Source: Candidatus Zixiibacteriota bacterium (GTDB lineage Bacteria > Zixibacteria > MSB-5A5 > GN15 > FEB-12). Taken from it: a stretch of 39,503 bases of DNA. The notes beneath the pieces are model-generated. The model ran no database searches. It saw only the letters and a list, made by a program, of their open reading frames with translations, and was not told the DNA's origin. Below, in pieces: positions 419 through 20,983 of the stretch. The stretch lies in the NCBI GenBank assembly GCA_020346225.1, contig CP070777.1, forward strand, positions 1,542,288 through 1,581,790, written 5' to 3'. How positions within the stretch are numbered: the stretch's first letter is position 1; each line of letters opens with the position of its first letter. A program made the translations under genes and the position numbers.

Positions 419-443
419 CCGGGCCGACCTGAGGCCGACCCGG
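419..443 (-). terminator. Possible intrinsic terminator of the POT-like transporter gene
   Basis: An 11-bp stem with two G-U pairs (arms 419-429 and 433-443) closes on a three-base loop. It begins about 34 bases after the transporter stop. The tail read on the minus strand is CTTGCTTT, only moderately U-rich, so this is a weak call. Confidence 0.4.
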
Positions 444-16600: not shown

Positions 16601-17128
16601 GCCGACGGCCGCGAGGTGAAAATAGGCGGCATACTGACGGCGGTCAAAAAGATGCCCGACAAGAAGGGCAACATGATGGCCTTTGCAACACTGGAAGACT
16701 TCTCGGGCTCGGTGGAACTGATACTTTTTTCGGACTGTTACGACAAAAGCAAGGCGTTCGTCGTCACTGAAACGATGGTATGGCTTACGGGTCGGGTATC
16801 GACCCGCGAAGGCGAGGCTTCCAAGGTAATTGCAGCGGAGGTTCTGCCGCTCGAAAAACTGACGGAACGCTTTAATTGCCAGCTTGTTATAAAGATAGGT
16901 CGGGATTGCGCCGACAATCTGGTTGACCAGGCGCTGGCCGCGCTTGAGGAAAACCGCGGAGAGGCGCCGGTTTTGCTGACAATACAGGAGAACGGATCCG
17001 AAGTCTACATACGTTCTGACAAGTACCTGGTGAGGCCGGATTTCGTGCTGGTGGACAGACTCAAGGAACTGCTCGGCGAGTCGGCCGTTTTCTTAAGACC
17101 TCTGAGCAGAAAGGAGAACTTTGTATAG
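13676..17128 (+). CDS. dnaE: DNA polymerase III alpha subunit (DnaE type)
   Basis: 1150 residues, normal length for the replicative polymerase DnaE (E. coli 1160). It starts with a PHP domain ('FVHLHTHSQYSLLDGA', 'ITDHGNLFGAIEFYK'). The three catalytic aspartates fall at D402 and D404 within 'PDIDIDF' (401-407) and at D555 in 'LLKMDFLGLRT', nearly identical in position to the E. coli enzyme. The helix-hairpin-helix region and a C-terminal OB fold ('VKIGGILTAVKKM' to 'VELILFSDCY') follow. A clamp-binding-like Q-N-S-H-D-L-F occurs at residues 906-912. The protein synthesises the chromosome as part of the holoenzyme. No clear ribosome binding site precedes the ATG. The last eight bases overlap the start of a thioredoxin-fold gene, indicating co-transcription. 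Confidence 0.98.
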   Translation: MKYANFVHLHTHSQYSLLDGACRLDSVVELAKEYRMPALAITDHGNLFGAIEFYKKATRAGIKPIIGCETYVAAGSRFEKKPSSHYPDGGFHLVLLAKNETGYRNLIKLTTAAFLEGFYHRPRVDKELLRQHSQGLLATSACLKGEVNWHLLNGRTDEAVAVARELNDIFGDGNFFLEIQNHGLEKQHLLIPKVEAIARETGVGLVATNDCHYLHQRDSEAHDALLCIQTGKTVSDTDRLRYASDQIYFKSASEMEAALGDYKAALENTVHIAESCHLELELGSLKLPRFPIPKPFVDPDVYLRHLCEQGLKERYSRLGEEINKRLDYELSVIKQMGYAGYFLIVKDFCDYARFRKIRVGPGRGSAAGSLVSYALRITNIDPIKFDLLFERFLNPERVSMPDIDIDFADRGRDQIIQYVIDKYGKENVCQIITFGTMMARGVVRDVGRVLGMPYGEVDRIAKLVPERIGITLETALKEVPELTQLKESDPRVEKLLDYSITLEGLARHCSTHAAGVVIAPSALTNFVPLFKGTKDEITTQYDMKMVEEIGLLKMDFLGLRTLTVIDDTLRMVVENHGQEIDIDNVPLDDAEVYRIFANGDTIGIFQFESLGMRDHLRRLCPETFTDITVMNALYRPGPLDSGMITEYIERKRGAKKVEYLHPKMKEILGNTYGVIVFQEQVLHIANALAGYSMGSADLLRKAMGKKDASLMAAQKREFLKGTESGKIERQTAEEIFNQIETFARYGFNKAHSTCYAYIAYQTAWLKHHYPREFMAALMSSEINSTDRIYQLLEECRRMRIKVLPPDVNESGVDFSVVEGQVRFGLMAIKNVGEGPARAIVQEREESGPYSDLADLVSRVPLKSVNRRILESLIAGGACDSLRGHRAQQHAAVEAMLEFAHRVAAHQNSHDLFADKAGAIRRVAPPLPDIPDWSNSETLAQEKAILGFYISGHPLDKYRDELAHFTDFKIGELARAADGREVKIGGILTAVKKMPDKKGNMMAFATLEDFSGSVELILFSDCYDKSKAFVVTETMVWLTGRVSTREGEASKVIAAEVLPLEKLTERFNCQLVIKIGRDCADNLVDQALAALEENRGEAPVLLTIQENGSEVYIRSDKYLVRPDFVLVDRLKELLGESAVFLRPLSRKENFV
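17111..17116 (+). promoter_or_regulatory. Ribosome binding site deciding a TTG start inside the end of dnaE
   Basis: AAGGAG, four bases before TTG at 17121. It lies within the last codons of dnaE, and no in-frame ATG with better spacing exists. Confidence 0.6.
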
Positions 17129-17678
17129 CCGTTCGGACAGATTCACTTCGCTTGCGAAGCTGGCAGCACTTTCGGTGGGGCTTATGGCCCTGGTGGCCCT
17201 GAATTTAATGGGTGCCGAAGACCGCCTTCCCGGCACCGACAGTCCGCCGAAAGATTCCACGGCGGTAATCGAGTGGCAAGCTTACGACGCCGGCCTGAGC
17301 GAAGCCAAAGAAGAAAACAAACACGTCTTCATCGGCTTCACGGCCAGGTGGTGCTACTACTGCCGCAAGATGGACAGAGAAGTCTTCACCGACCCCCAGG
17401 TTATCGAGCTGGTCAATAAAGACTTCGTCCCGGTCAGAGTCGACGGCGACTCAAAAAGAGAACTGGATATCGACGGTTACAAAATCACGGAAAAGAACCT
17501 GACTGTCGGTGAATTCGGCGTCAGGAACTTCCCTACTTTCTGGTTTCTAAAACCCGATGGGACCAAGCTCGGCGCCCTCGTGGGCTACCGGCCTGCGGAA
17601 GAAATGCTGAAGGCGCTGGTGTTCGTCAAAGACTACCGGTACGATTCCACGGACACATCGACAGAGGACACTGAATAG
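17121..17678 (+). CDS. Exported thioredoxin-fold protein with WCYYC active site
   Basis: 185 residues. The N-terminus has basic residues and then a hydrophobic segment (about residues 12-30), a signal peptide or membrane anchor. The mature part begins with an acidic linker and a thioredoxin fold with 'FTARWCYYCRKMDREVF', the pattern of DsbD-gamma/SoxW-like periplasmic thioredoxins in which the CxxC is CYYC; the cis-proline loop is 'GVRNFPTFWFL'. It likely reduces or exchanges disulfides outside the cytoplasm; the partner is unknown. The start is a TTG supported by AAGGAG four bases upstream and overlaps the dnaE stop by eight bases. A link between dnaE and this gene is probably only transcriptional. 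A second exported thioredoxin-like protein follows 102 bases later. Confidence 0.82.
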   Translation: MYSRSDRFTSLAKLAALSVGLMALVALNLMGAEDRLPGTDSPPKDSTAVIEWQAYDAGLSEAKEENKHVFIGFTARWCYYCRKMDREVFTDPQVIELVNKDFVPVRVDGDSKRELDIDGYKITEKNLTVGEFGVRNFPTFWFLKPDGTKLGALVGYRPAEEMLKALVFVKDYRYDSTDTSTEDTE

Positions 17679-17780
17679 CAGGGCCTGCCTCGGTACGGCC
17701 GGGCACAGGGTGTGTTTTTGCTTGCCCTGAGGGCGGTTTTGTATTACTTAGAGCCGAACAGCTCAGAATAAGGAACAGCC

Positions 17781-18320
17781 ATGACCAGGATTACTGCGAC
17801 TATCATCCTTTTTTTCACAATGATGCTGCTGGCAAGCTGCGGTGGTGAGAACAAGGCCGAACAGTCCGACCCGGCCTCCGATGCAAATCTCCACCAGAGC
17901 GATTCGGTATCATCGGAGTTTATCTTCAGCGCTTATGACATCGACGGAAGCTTGAGAAGCTCCGGCGAGTGGGTCGGCAAACAGCCGGTGGTGATAAATT
18001 TCTGGGGGACCTGGTGTCCTCCGTGCCGCAAGGAAATCCCCGATCTGGTGAGGATCTACAACGAGTACCAGTCGCGGGGCATCGAAATCCTGGGAGTGGC
18101 GGTACGGGATCAAGCCGGCAGTGTGGCCAAGTTCTCGTACGAGAACGGGATGAACTGGGTGATGCTGATGGGTGATAACAGCCTGGCCATGCGCTACGGA
18201 ATCACGGGCGTTCCGACCACCATTTTCGTTGACGGGGGCGGCAACGAAAAAGGCCGGTTTGTCGGTCCGCGCGACTATGAAACCTTCAAACAGGCCTTCG
18301 AGATGCTTCTTCAGCCTTGA
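17781..18320 (+). CDS. TlpA/ResA-like thioredoxin lipoprotein
   Basis: 179 residues. The signal peptide ends in a lipobox, LAS-C20, so the protein is lipid-anchored facing the periplasm. After a polar linker comes an AhpC/TSA-type thioredoxin fold with 'VINFWGTWCPPCRKEIPDL', the WCPPC centre of TlpA/ResA proteins, and the cis-proline loop 'GVPTTIFVD'. Family members keep heme-binding cysteines reduced during cytochrome c maturation or serve general periplasmic thiol reduction. A heme c oxidase gene pair converges from the right and a tetraheme cytochrome lies 10 kb away, which makes a cytochrome maturation role attractive but unproven. An AAGGA ribosome binding site sits at good spacing before the ATG. 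A strong terminator follows. Confidence 0.88.
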   Translation: MTRITATIILFFTMMLLASCGGENKAEQSDPASDANLHQSDSVSSEFIFSAYDIDGSLRSSGEWVGKQPVVINFWGTWCPPCRKEIPDLVRIYNEYQSRGIEILGVAVRDQAGSVAKFSYENGMNWVMLMGDNSLAMRYGITGVPTTIFVDGGGNEKGRFVGPRDYETFKQAFEMLLQP

Positions 18321-18403: not shown

Positions 18404-19429
18404 TCAAACCGGCTGACCGCGGCCGCCAAAAAACAGCTTCAGCATATACCACACCAGTGCAATAGCCAGCAAGAAGCAAATCAAGAACACCACAAACACC
18501 GACCACTGCGGGCGCACGGCAATCGCGGCCGGGTCAAACTTACCCTCCAGTAGCAGCAGCCGGAGCGTATGACGAACAAACACCATGCCCAGAAGCGACA
18601 CGGCCAGCATCAGTCCCGACCAGACGAATCTCTTCTTGAAGACAAAGTGCAGCGAAAGCAGAGACAGGACGATGGCGACCACGAGGACCCAGACGGCCGG
18701 GCTGCGCATCAGCGGCAGGATATAATCGCCCAGAGTGAAAAGGTAGATCAGGCCCAGTACCATGGCGGCGGCCATGCCCCAGAGATAGAAAGTCTTGCCG
18801 GTGCCGTACGCCTGCTGGTCGTCTCTGCCCAGCAGGGCGACGAAGAAACCGCCCACCGTCAATGCCCCCAGAAGCATGTGCAGCCACCTGAACAGGTACG
18901 ACCCGAAATCGGTGTTCAGTACCAGTCCGGACTGGTTGCCGGCATACAGCGAGAGATAGAGTTCGGGATGCTCCGCCAGCGAAAAGACCGAACTGTACAC
19001 CAGCGAAATGTAGAGAAGCCCGATCAGGGCTACCGTGAGATATGTCCCCAAGCGCCGGCCGCCGGAAACCACCGCGAAAGACGAGGCATACAGGAAATAG
19101 TAAACGATTATAGCCGCAAGCGCTATCATCAGCCAGAACCAGGCGCTGACGATCGAGGCGGAGTAGACCTGGTCGGCGTAGACCAGCTGTACGAACAATA
19201 GCGGCGCCACGCCCAGCGTAATGGTGGCGGCCATGGCGTTGGGAAGTTGCTTGATGATGCCGCCGACGGTCGGGTGGTTCCATTTCTCGCTGAATCGGCC
19301 GAAAAGCAATATTATGACTCCGCCAACCACGAAATTCATGGCCAGGAAGTGCAGTGTCAGCGTCACGACATGAAGGATCGTCACCAGCCAGAGAGGCGCC
19401 GACAGGAAATTGTAATCGGGTAAGTTCAT
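18404..19429 (-). CDS. Partner subunit of a bd-type oxidase, apparently a degenerate CydA paralogue
   Basis: 341 residues with eight or nine membrane helices. It is not an obvious CydB. By eye it aligns with its neighbouring CydA-like subunit: H27-F-L-A-M-N-F-V-V-G-G here lies over H23-V-F-V-S-H-F-A-I-G-G there, and 'SAWFWLMIALAAIIVYYFLY' lies over 'TEWTFFAIEITAVLLYFYG', with both glutamates (E104, E111) replaced by alanines (A96, A103). H184 in 'FRWLHMLLGALTVGG' sits where E. coli CydA has the heme b558 ligand H186. I infer a heme-carrying or structural subunit derived from CydA by duplication. The ATG overlaps the stop of the upstream subunit by four bases (ATGA), so the two are translationally coupled and probably made 1:1. 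It could instead be a highly diverged membrane cytochrome b. Confidence 0.72.
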   Translation of the reverse strand: MNLPDYNFLSAPLWLVTILHVVTLTLHFLAMNFVVGGVIILLFGRFSEKWNHPTVGGIIKQLPNAMAATITLGVAPLLFVQLVYADQVYSASIVSAWFWLMIALAAIIVYYFLYASSFAVVSGGRRLGTYLTVALIGLLYISLVYSSVFSLAEHPELYLSLYAGNQSGLVLNTDFGSYLFRWLHMLLGALTVGGFFVALLGRDDQQAYGTGKTFYLWGMAAAMVLGLIYLFTLGDYILPLMRSPAVWVLVVAIVLSLLSLHFVFKKRFVWSGLMLAVSLLGMVFVRHTLRLLLLEGKFDPAAIAVRPQWSVFVVFLICFLLAIALVWYMLKLFFGGRGQPV

Positions 19430-20937
19430 CGCGTCCCCCCTTCGTTCAAGGACAGCAGGTACTCGACCAAGGCCTGGCGCTCGGTTTCGTCGCCGGTGAA
19501 ATCAGGCATCTCGTCGCCGAATTCCCCGGCCATGTCGAGGATGCCGCCCAGGTCATCGGCGGTCAGACCCGCCAGGGATTCCCATTTGTCGTTGTAACCG
19601 CCTATTTCGTGGCAACCGCCGCACCTGACACGGTATACTTTCCGGCCAAGCTCGACTCCGCCAAGACCGTAAATCTCACCCAGGTGCCGGTTATCCAGAC
19701 GGGCATGAATGTGGGCGGCGATAAGCTCTGCTTCCTCTTGGGTTCCCATGAACGGCGGCATGTTACCTTTTATCACGCCGGTGCCCCGGACAATGGCGGC
19801 AATGAAATCCCGGTCGGTACCGTCGAAAGCAGGCTCGAGGGCTTTATAGCCGCCGACAGTATGACAGCTCCGACAGGCTCTCCGAAAGAGATCGGCGCCG
19901 TCATCGCCGGTGCGAAAAACTATCCAGCTCAAGTAACCTTCTTCGGCATATATATCCGCTCTGGCTACCTCGAGAGCGTTGCCGTACATATGACCGGAGA
20001 TGACATAGGGCTTGCGGATCGACTCGCGCATCCACTCGTACTCGGCAAACCAGCTCAGGCCGAAACCCATGACGATTATGGCCACGACGATATTGTACTT
20101 CTTCGGTATGATGAGACCGAAAAGAAGCAGCGCAACCGCTATCAGGCCGGCGTTCCAGAACGAGCCGGTAAGCGAGGCAATCGGTGTCGGCATCATTTCC
20201 AGAGCGGTGCTGGTGATCGCGGCCGGGATCGATTTCCAGTACCAGTAAAATGTCGGCACCATAACGACCAGACCGGCCAGCGCCCACCGGGCGTTGTAGC
20301 GAACGAGAACTTTCTTGAAATCGTCCGCCTTGTAGCGGGAGGCTATCACCAGTGCGTAAAGCCCGGCCAGCATGATGCACACGCCGGTGCGGAGCCACAG
20401 CGACGACCAGAAAGTAGGGTTGAAAAAGCCGTCCCAGAAACTGCCCGTGACCAGCCAGTCGCCGGGTGTCAGCATAAAGGTGATTATCCCGTTGATGACA
20501 AACAGTGACATCCAGGCGGCGCCGAAGTAGATCCAGCCGACAATAACATGAGCGCGGGCCGTCATCCGGTCCCACCCGTAGAAGTACAGCAAAACGGCCG
20601 TTATTTCGATCGCGAAGAAGGTCCACTCGGTCGCCCAGCCCCAGACAAAATTGTGGATGAGGGCCTCGGTGGCGGTCGGGTTCAACAGACCGATTATGAA
20701 CCAGATACCGACACCCGTCAGGGCCCCGAAGACCACTGTCACGAGAACGAAAAACTTGCTGAGCTTGCGCAGAAACTCCAGCATCAGCTTATCGTTCCTT
20801 TTGCGGGCCCTCGTTTCCGCCACGACGAGGTACAGGCCCCCGCCGATGGCAAAGTGGGAAACGAAGACGTGGACGACGGCAATGCCGGCCATCAGCAAAC
20901 CGTAGCCAATGCCGACATCCCAAAAGGGATAATTCAT
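19426..20937 (-). CDS. bd-type oxidase catalytic subunit (CydA-like) fused to a diheme cytochrome c tail
   Basis: 503 residues. Residues 1-315 are a CydA-like core of about eight helices: H23 matches E. coli H19 (heme ligand), E111 in 'FFAIEITAVLLYFYGWDR' matches E107, E104 lies next to the E99 position, and E305 in 'RESIRKPY' matches the glutamate of CydA 'E-x-GRQPW'. The b558 ligand H186 appears to be R183, and there is no recognisable quinol loop. The C-terminal part has two class I heme c sites, C355-R-S-C-H359 with 'MPPF' and C439-G-G-C-H443 with 'EMPDF'. The core reduces oxygen; the tail suggests electrons come from cytochrome c rather than quinol. I chose the ATG at 20937 (GGAGGGAGAG upstream) over an in-frame ATG at 21012, which precedes the promoter -10 box. 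It overlaps the partner gene by four bases. Confidence 0.82.
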   Translation of the reverse strand: MNYPFWDVGIGYGLLMAGIAVVHVFVSHFAIGGGLYLVVAETRARKRNDKLMLEFLRKLSKFFVLVTVVFGALTGVGIWFIIGLLNPTATEALIHNFVWGWATEWTFFAIEITAVLLYFYGWDRMTARAHVIVGWIYFGAAWMSLFVINGIITFMLTPGDWLVTGSFWDGFFNPTFWSSLWLRTGVCIMLAGLYALVIASRYKADDFKKVLVRYNARWALAGLVVMVPTFYWYWKSIPAAITSTALEMMPTPIASLTGSFWNAGLIAVALLLFGLIIPKKYNIVVAIIVMGFGLSWFAEYEWMRESIRKPYVISGHMYGNALEVARADIYAEEGYLSWIVFRTGDDGADLFRRACRSCHTVGGYKALEPAFDGTDRDFIAAIVRGTGVIKGNMPPFMGTQEEAELIAAHIHARLDNRHLGEIYGLGGVELGRKVYRVRCGGCHEIGGYNDKWESLAGLTADDLGGILDMAGEFGDEMPDFTGDETERQALVEYLLSLNEGGTR

Positions 20938-20983
20938 AGCGACACTCTCCCTCCGTTCCTTTGTTGAGGAGATGCTTTTCGGT

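Follow-up and report, generated by a model that had tools for sequence, protein, structure and literature searches.

The solved structures of bd-type oxidases found in this work were all of the canonical CydAB quinol-oxidase kind, and several bacterial phyla hold bd-type enzymes without a quinol site. The OR-C family, as Murali, Gennis and Hemp are said to have described it in 2021, has a CydA-type subunit carrying c-type haem. The archaeal CydAA′ of Caldivirga, a heterodimer of two CydA paralogues, is reportedly a quinol oxidase according to the same 2021 work of Murali. In canonical CydA, the Q-loop lies between TM6 and TM7 (PMC8951039). Quinol-free bd families (OR-C and OR-N) and CydAA′ pairs have already been described (PMC10839748, PMC12342949, PMC13189123, PMC12324825). 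In the OR-N or bacterial CydAA′ enzymes of Nitrospira and Nitrospinota, two CydA-type subunits without a quinol site are proposed to act as one O2 reductase with cytochrome c as the donor, and in one OR-N5 type the ACIII genes lie upstream (PMC10839748, PMC12342949, PMC12324825). In Nitrospina, the bd-like protein contains 14 TM helices, three of which replace the Q-loop (PMC3578206). Running backwards to reduce quinone has been suggested for bd-like proteins of nitrite oxidisers.

The gene pair analysed here, designated A and B, resembles canonical CydAB (5doq, 6rx4, 9r2g) in fold and in ligands of the H19/E99/E107/E445 type, but the features of quinol-oxidising cytochrome bd (qOR), namely the Q-loop, the b558 histidine H186 and the CydB partner, are all missing, and a haem-c tail is present. 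The pair is probably a variant of the OR-C family, with which it shares a catalytic subunit of the CydA type that has c-type haem and no quinol site; in A, two CxxCH motifs with Met ligands are found on the CydA chain. The likeness to OR-N and bacterial CydAA′ lies in the two CydA-type subunits, the missing quinol site and the proposed cytochrome c donor. Unlike the Nitrospina protein, A combines 8 TM helices with two fused c haems, and B has 9 TM helices. Profiles and a tree indicated that the partner of A is a CydA paralogue, as in CydAA′-type heterodimers; the archaeal form (qOR4a) differs in that A lacks the Q-loop, carries haem-c domains and has bacterial proteins as its closest named relatives. 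No paper describing the A/B pair was found in the literature searches.

Gene arrangement of the A/B locus

The window, a stretch of 39,503 nucleotides, belongs to the genome of an uncultured Zixibacteria-like bacterium, assembled as a single contig of 3.18 Mb. The span 18404-20937, for which a first-pass annotation had proposed a bd-type oxidase with a coupled second subunit, was resolved into the genes A and B (Table 1). The start codon of B lies within the stop codon of A, and the same 4-nt overlap was found again in most close-family loci. This gene coupling is suggestive of a physical A-B complex. The closest named relatives of A were Candidatus Zixiibacteriota MAGs with 80% identity.

Table 1. 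Positions of the A and B genes, their sequence features and related loci
Feature	Position	Strand	Details
Gene A	19426..20937	minus	taken as catalytic CydA-type subunit, 503 aa, ATG start
Architecture of A	residues 12-308, then tail		8 predicted TM helices, then two periplasmic haem-c domains (Pfam, AF2, loop charges)
Haem-c sites of A	CxxCH 355-359; CxxCH 439-443		with Met393; with Met477
Gene B	18404..19429	minus	341 aa, CydA-type paralogue, putatively non-catalytic; 9 TM helices predicted, c haem absent
A stop/B start overlap	19426..19429	minus	4 nt (ATGA), from sequence; translational coupling
Shine-Dalgarno-like GGAGGGAGAG	20945..20954	minus	read from sequence; 7 nt 5′ of the ATG of A
Thioredoxin/TlpA-like genes	17121-18320		two genes, convergent with B
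B with C-terminal Rieske domain	L070:4308-5972; L072:3688-5352		directly upstream of A
B-Rieske-cytochrome b-A loci	L046-L050, L052-L057, L059, L060, L062-L066, L068, L076		20 loci
A fused to multihaem region	L043:6001-8658; L094:1-2204		MtrC/MtrF-like
Own-genome reductase operon	L084:2553-5387		Rieske, cytochrome b, multihaem cytochrome c
Own-genome A′	L128:3791-5218		sister type
Own-genome B′	L128:3268-3789 and L127:3745-4854		sister type, in two parts

The neighbours in the window were unremarkable. Upstream of A lies an acetyltransferase-like gene; on the other side, two thioredoxin-like genes run convergent with B, and beyond them comes a DNA polymerase III alpha-like gene. Homologues of the two thioredoxin/TlpA-like genes were equally placed in seven close relatives, which may be synteny only or may reflect a role in cytochrome c assembly. 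The window's own A-B operon contained no cytochrome c reductase genes.

Sequence and predicted fold of subunit A

Pfam assigned A to Cyt_bd_oxida_I (PF01654) with 48.7 bits against a cut-off of 26.2, and also recognised two stretches of cytochrome c (PF13442, 58.9 bits). The CydA landmarks H23, E111 and E305 that had been read from the window, together with E104, were present and correspond to H19, E107, E445 and E99 of E. coli CydA, respectively. Among 63 A homologues, H23, E104, E111, R183, E301, E305, R308 and K309 were invariant and R304 was nearly so. The A profile retrieved Geobacillus CydA in the PDB; the segment RESIRKPY of A, with its GRQPW-like RKPY motif, was aligned to the EVGRQPW region of 5doq, and E305 was paired with the E preceding GRQPW. 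The AF2 model of A (pLDDT 87) comprised 8 TM helices followed by the c domains, and solved CydA chains were its best matches by Foldseek (9r2g_A, E 3.6e-7; 5doq_A, E 3.5e-6).

The departures from quinol oxidases that had been claimed for A were also borne out. The b558 histidine is replaced by R183, and Arg was found at this position in 63 of 63 homologues. The Q-loop is absent because the TM6-TM7 loop has only about 14 residues in the model. Both CxxCH sites and their Met-Pro loops were confirmed, and the Met ligands M393 and M477 were invariant in the close family. The loop charges of A (positive-inside) placed its N-terminus outside, together with the haem-c tail.

Identity of subunit B

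No Pfam family was found for B even at E 1, and none in NCBIfam, where the single weak match was spurious. In the AF2 model (pLDDT 93, pTM 0.89), B adopted the fold of a bd subunit. Its strong structural matches in Foldseek were bd-oxidase subunits only, with CydB chains slightly ahead of CydA, so that the fold alone cannot separate the two and the identity of B is decided by sequence profiles. Comparison of B with CydB by hhalign gave no match (probability 0.3-2.6%). In contrast, the divergent A set and the divergent B set were matched with 98% probability (E 1.5e-13, 315 columns) and the full families with 97.8% (E 1.1e-12), comparable to A against quinol CydA (96.7%, E 4e-10). When the B profile was run over 132 whole genomes, the adjoining A gene was also recovered in nine of them, with E values from 2e-6 to 4e-11. 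With the close families only, no homology between A and B was shown (hhalign 0.2%), and divergent members were needed; the earlier alignment of B with A as a CydA-type protein thus agrees with the profiles and the tree and is not demonstrable from the window alone. CydB as the identity of B was ruled out by the profiles (Pfam and hhalign), despite its first rank in Foldseek, in line with the first-pass view that B does not look like CydB. By its sequence, B is a CydA-type paralogue of A.

A tree was built from the TM cores of 32 A, 32 B and 9 quinol CydA proteins and rooted on quinol CydA. A formed one clade and B formed one clade (97/99 and 100/99); this result is limited by the length of the branch leading to B (2.95) and by the distance between the aligned membrane proteins. 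Since A and B each form one clade, they are, on the sequences compared, sister clades from one ancient duplication that preceded the spread of both. There is also a sister clade of gene pairs in the same order, in which A carries one haem c and another is attached at the C-terminal end of B (CxxCH near residue 381); this state, with haem c on both subunits, looks like the less reduced one. One sister-clade A protein was also without a PF01654 match.

Haem-ligand positions of subunit B

H27, R181, H184, R286, H287 and R290 of B were conserved near the window, and H27 was invariant in every B sequence examined. Of 70 B sequences, 68 were devoid of Asp and Glu in helix 3. The first-pass annotation had placed A96 and A103 of B beneath the two helix-3 glutamates of A; the loss of the acidic residues held, and the exact register varied between alignments. 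Because B has lost these glutamates, we assign catalysis in the pair to A, as had been supposed.

H27 and H184, both noted before, were present in B, and B had been supposed to supply a low-spin haem site. The close family keeps H184 with R181, as do eight more remote B proteins and all seven B proteins of the sister clade, which agrees with this supposition for those groups. It does not extend to the 22 B proteins in which position 184 is Phe, Met or Tyr, and the A partners of these proteins have Arg. In the close family and the sister clade, H287 occupies the place of the CydA b595 ligand E445, and all three CydA haem-ligand positions of B are His; position 287 is Asp in most distant B proteins. 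B of the window lineage probably retains at least one b haem.

Gene order in relatives

B lay beside A or in one operon with it in 54 of 55 loci in named genomes, and the 55th ended at a contig end. These loci came from Zixiibacteriota, Latescibacterota, Acidobacteria, Verrucomicrobia, Planctomycetota, Omnitrophota and others. Three architectures recurred: A and B adjacent, as in the window; the order B-Rieske-cytochrome b-A; and a B-Rieske fusion adjoining A (Table 1). In Acidobacteria, Verrucomicrobia and others, a bc-type module sits between both CydA-type subunits. Among the B-Rieske-cytochrome b-A loci, those examined closely had no separate cytochrome c1 gene between the genes, so the c1 role in these loci could be filled by the c haem of A itself.

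Most of the 22 relatives with Phe, Met or Tyr at position 184 of B had the operon B-Rieske-cytochrome b-A, and two had the B-Rieske fusion. In a first set of relatives, the loss of H184 appeared to be tied to the Rieske/cytochrome b operon. This association was broken by L040, a locus inside the close family with the order Rieske-cytochrome b-A-B and a 4-nt overlap of cytochrome b and A, which keeps H184; the loss is taken to be clade-specific.

Respiratory genes of the source genome

No match to CydB (PF02322) was detected anywhere in the source genome. One clear haem-copper oxidase was found, in an ACIII-caa3 cluster. Rieske, cytochrome b and multihaem cytochrome c genes were also found in one operon (Table 1), which might serve as reductase for the haem-c tail of A; both this operon and the ACIII-caa3 cluster could reduce cytochrome c. 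A second pair, of the sister type, was observed in the same genome. Its A′ was without a match to PF01654, and its B′ was split between two distant places beside runs of N, which is probably an assembly fault. Among 61 relatives, A/B and CydAB occurred together in only 4, fewer than expected (Fisher p 2.5e-4, kinship ignored), as if one replaces the other; this is consistent with the two substituting for one another.

Discussion

Our results make it quite probable that A pairs with B in an O2-reducing heterodimer of the cytochrome bd superfamily, which is fed by a c-type cytochrome and in which B is a non-catalytic substitute for CydB. We infer O2 as the substrate, cytochrome c as the donor, the haem content of B and the formation of the complex. 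In this membrane heterodimer, A would hold the high-spin haem pair through H23 and E305, with E104 and E111 on helix 3. The two periplasmic haem-c domains of A would take electrons from the cytochrome-c-reducing complexes of the cell and hand them directly to the high-spin haems, with no b558-type haem in A. B, a CydA paralogue minus the helix-3 glutamates, would be unable to reduce O2 itself and would act as a stand-in for CydB. Since the window operon has no cytochrome c reductase, the donor is deduced from relatives; the position of the haem-c tail and the relatives' operons point to electron entry through this tail. The cytochrome c donor put forward in the first-pass annotation accords with the tail of A and with the Rieske/cytochrome b operons and B-Rieske fusions in relatives. 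What that annotation had named as contrary to its reading, namely B as a CydB, a fold other than bd and a quinol site in A, was looked for in each case, and none came true.

The role of B is the point on which the nearest alternative differs. A low-spin haem at H184 of B might relay electrons from the c haems to the high-spin pair of A, the b558 function having moved between paralogues. The retention of H184 and R181 in the close family, in the eight other B proteins and in all seven of the sister clade would suit such a relay, as would the Arg at the matching position of every A homologue. However, 22 B proteins have another residue at position 184 while their A partners also lack the histidine, so that a general mechanism must work without it, and L040 keeps H184 alongside a bc operon, the loss being specific to a clade and not tied to the donor. 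Furthermore, in bd structures in general, a pseudo-twofold dimer of the CydA/CydB kind would place the site of B distant from the haems of A. The relay is therefore considered unlikely, and by the residues found there, a low-spin haem at position 184 of B is no general requirement. Direct transfer from the c haems to the high-spin haems of A, with B as a CydB-like partner that perhaps holds haem, is the most likely course.

The acceptor and the nature of B can be questioned as well. The pair might be a cytochrome c:acceptor enzyme of the bd fold whose acceptor is not O2 (NO or peroxide, for example), or it might reduce quinone in reverse; a complex-III-like role for bd-like proteins without a quinol site was raised in the Nitrospina genome paper (PMC3578206). 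This seems quite improbable in view of the O2 site in A, whose glutamates and haem ligands are invariant, and the quinol-free bd-type enzymes of Nitrospira were later treated as cytochrome-c-using O2 reductases (PMC12324825). The co-occurrence of A/B with CydAB below expectation (4 of 61, kinship ignored) also argues against it. The reading of B as a CydB that has diverged very far, or as some unrelated membrane protein, is very improbable indeed: the size and helix count of B suit CydB and CydB chains were its best Foldseek matches, but neither hhalign nor Pfam gave a CydB match, several searches independent of one another matched B significantly to A over the TM core, and the sister-clade B proteins retain a C-terminal cytochrome c domain like that of A.

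The linkage to Rieske and cytochrome b genes in relatives is the most interesting part, rather than the window pair alone. We tentatively entertain, with more doubt than conviction, that a widespread respiratory module, not described so far, joins a Rieske/cytochrome b complex lacking a c1 of its own to a bd-type oxygen reductase with two CydA-type subunits and a haem-c tail, and that the window pair represents the free-standing version of this module. If true, the module would be a quinol:O2 supercomplex joining bc-type proton translocation to bd-type O2 chemistry, and neither CydA-type subunit would need the b558 histidine. The relatives' operons are analogous to actinobacterial bcc-aa3, in which a Rieske/cytochrome b complex is coupled directly to the oxidase through a bound c haem; the difference is that here a bd-type oxidase is involved, whose own subunit carries the haem c.

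The A/B pair is compact, and the operons and Rieske fusions of its relatives name an electron donor that can be tested. B is missed by routine annotation because it has no Pfam or NCBIfam family; as one sister-clade A protein is also missed by PF01654, the terminal oxidases of these lineages may be under-counted. In two further loci, A was fused to an additional multihaem region (Table 1), and the A of L043 contained seven more CxxCH motifs beyond the usual haem-c domain; the donor to A in fusions of this type could be a multihaem cytochrome.
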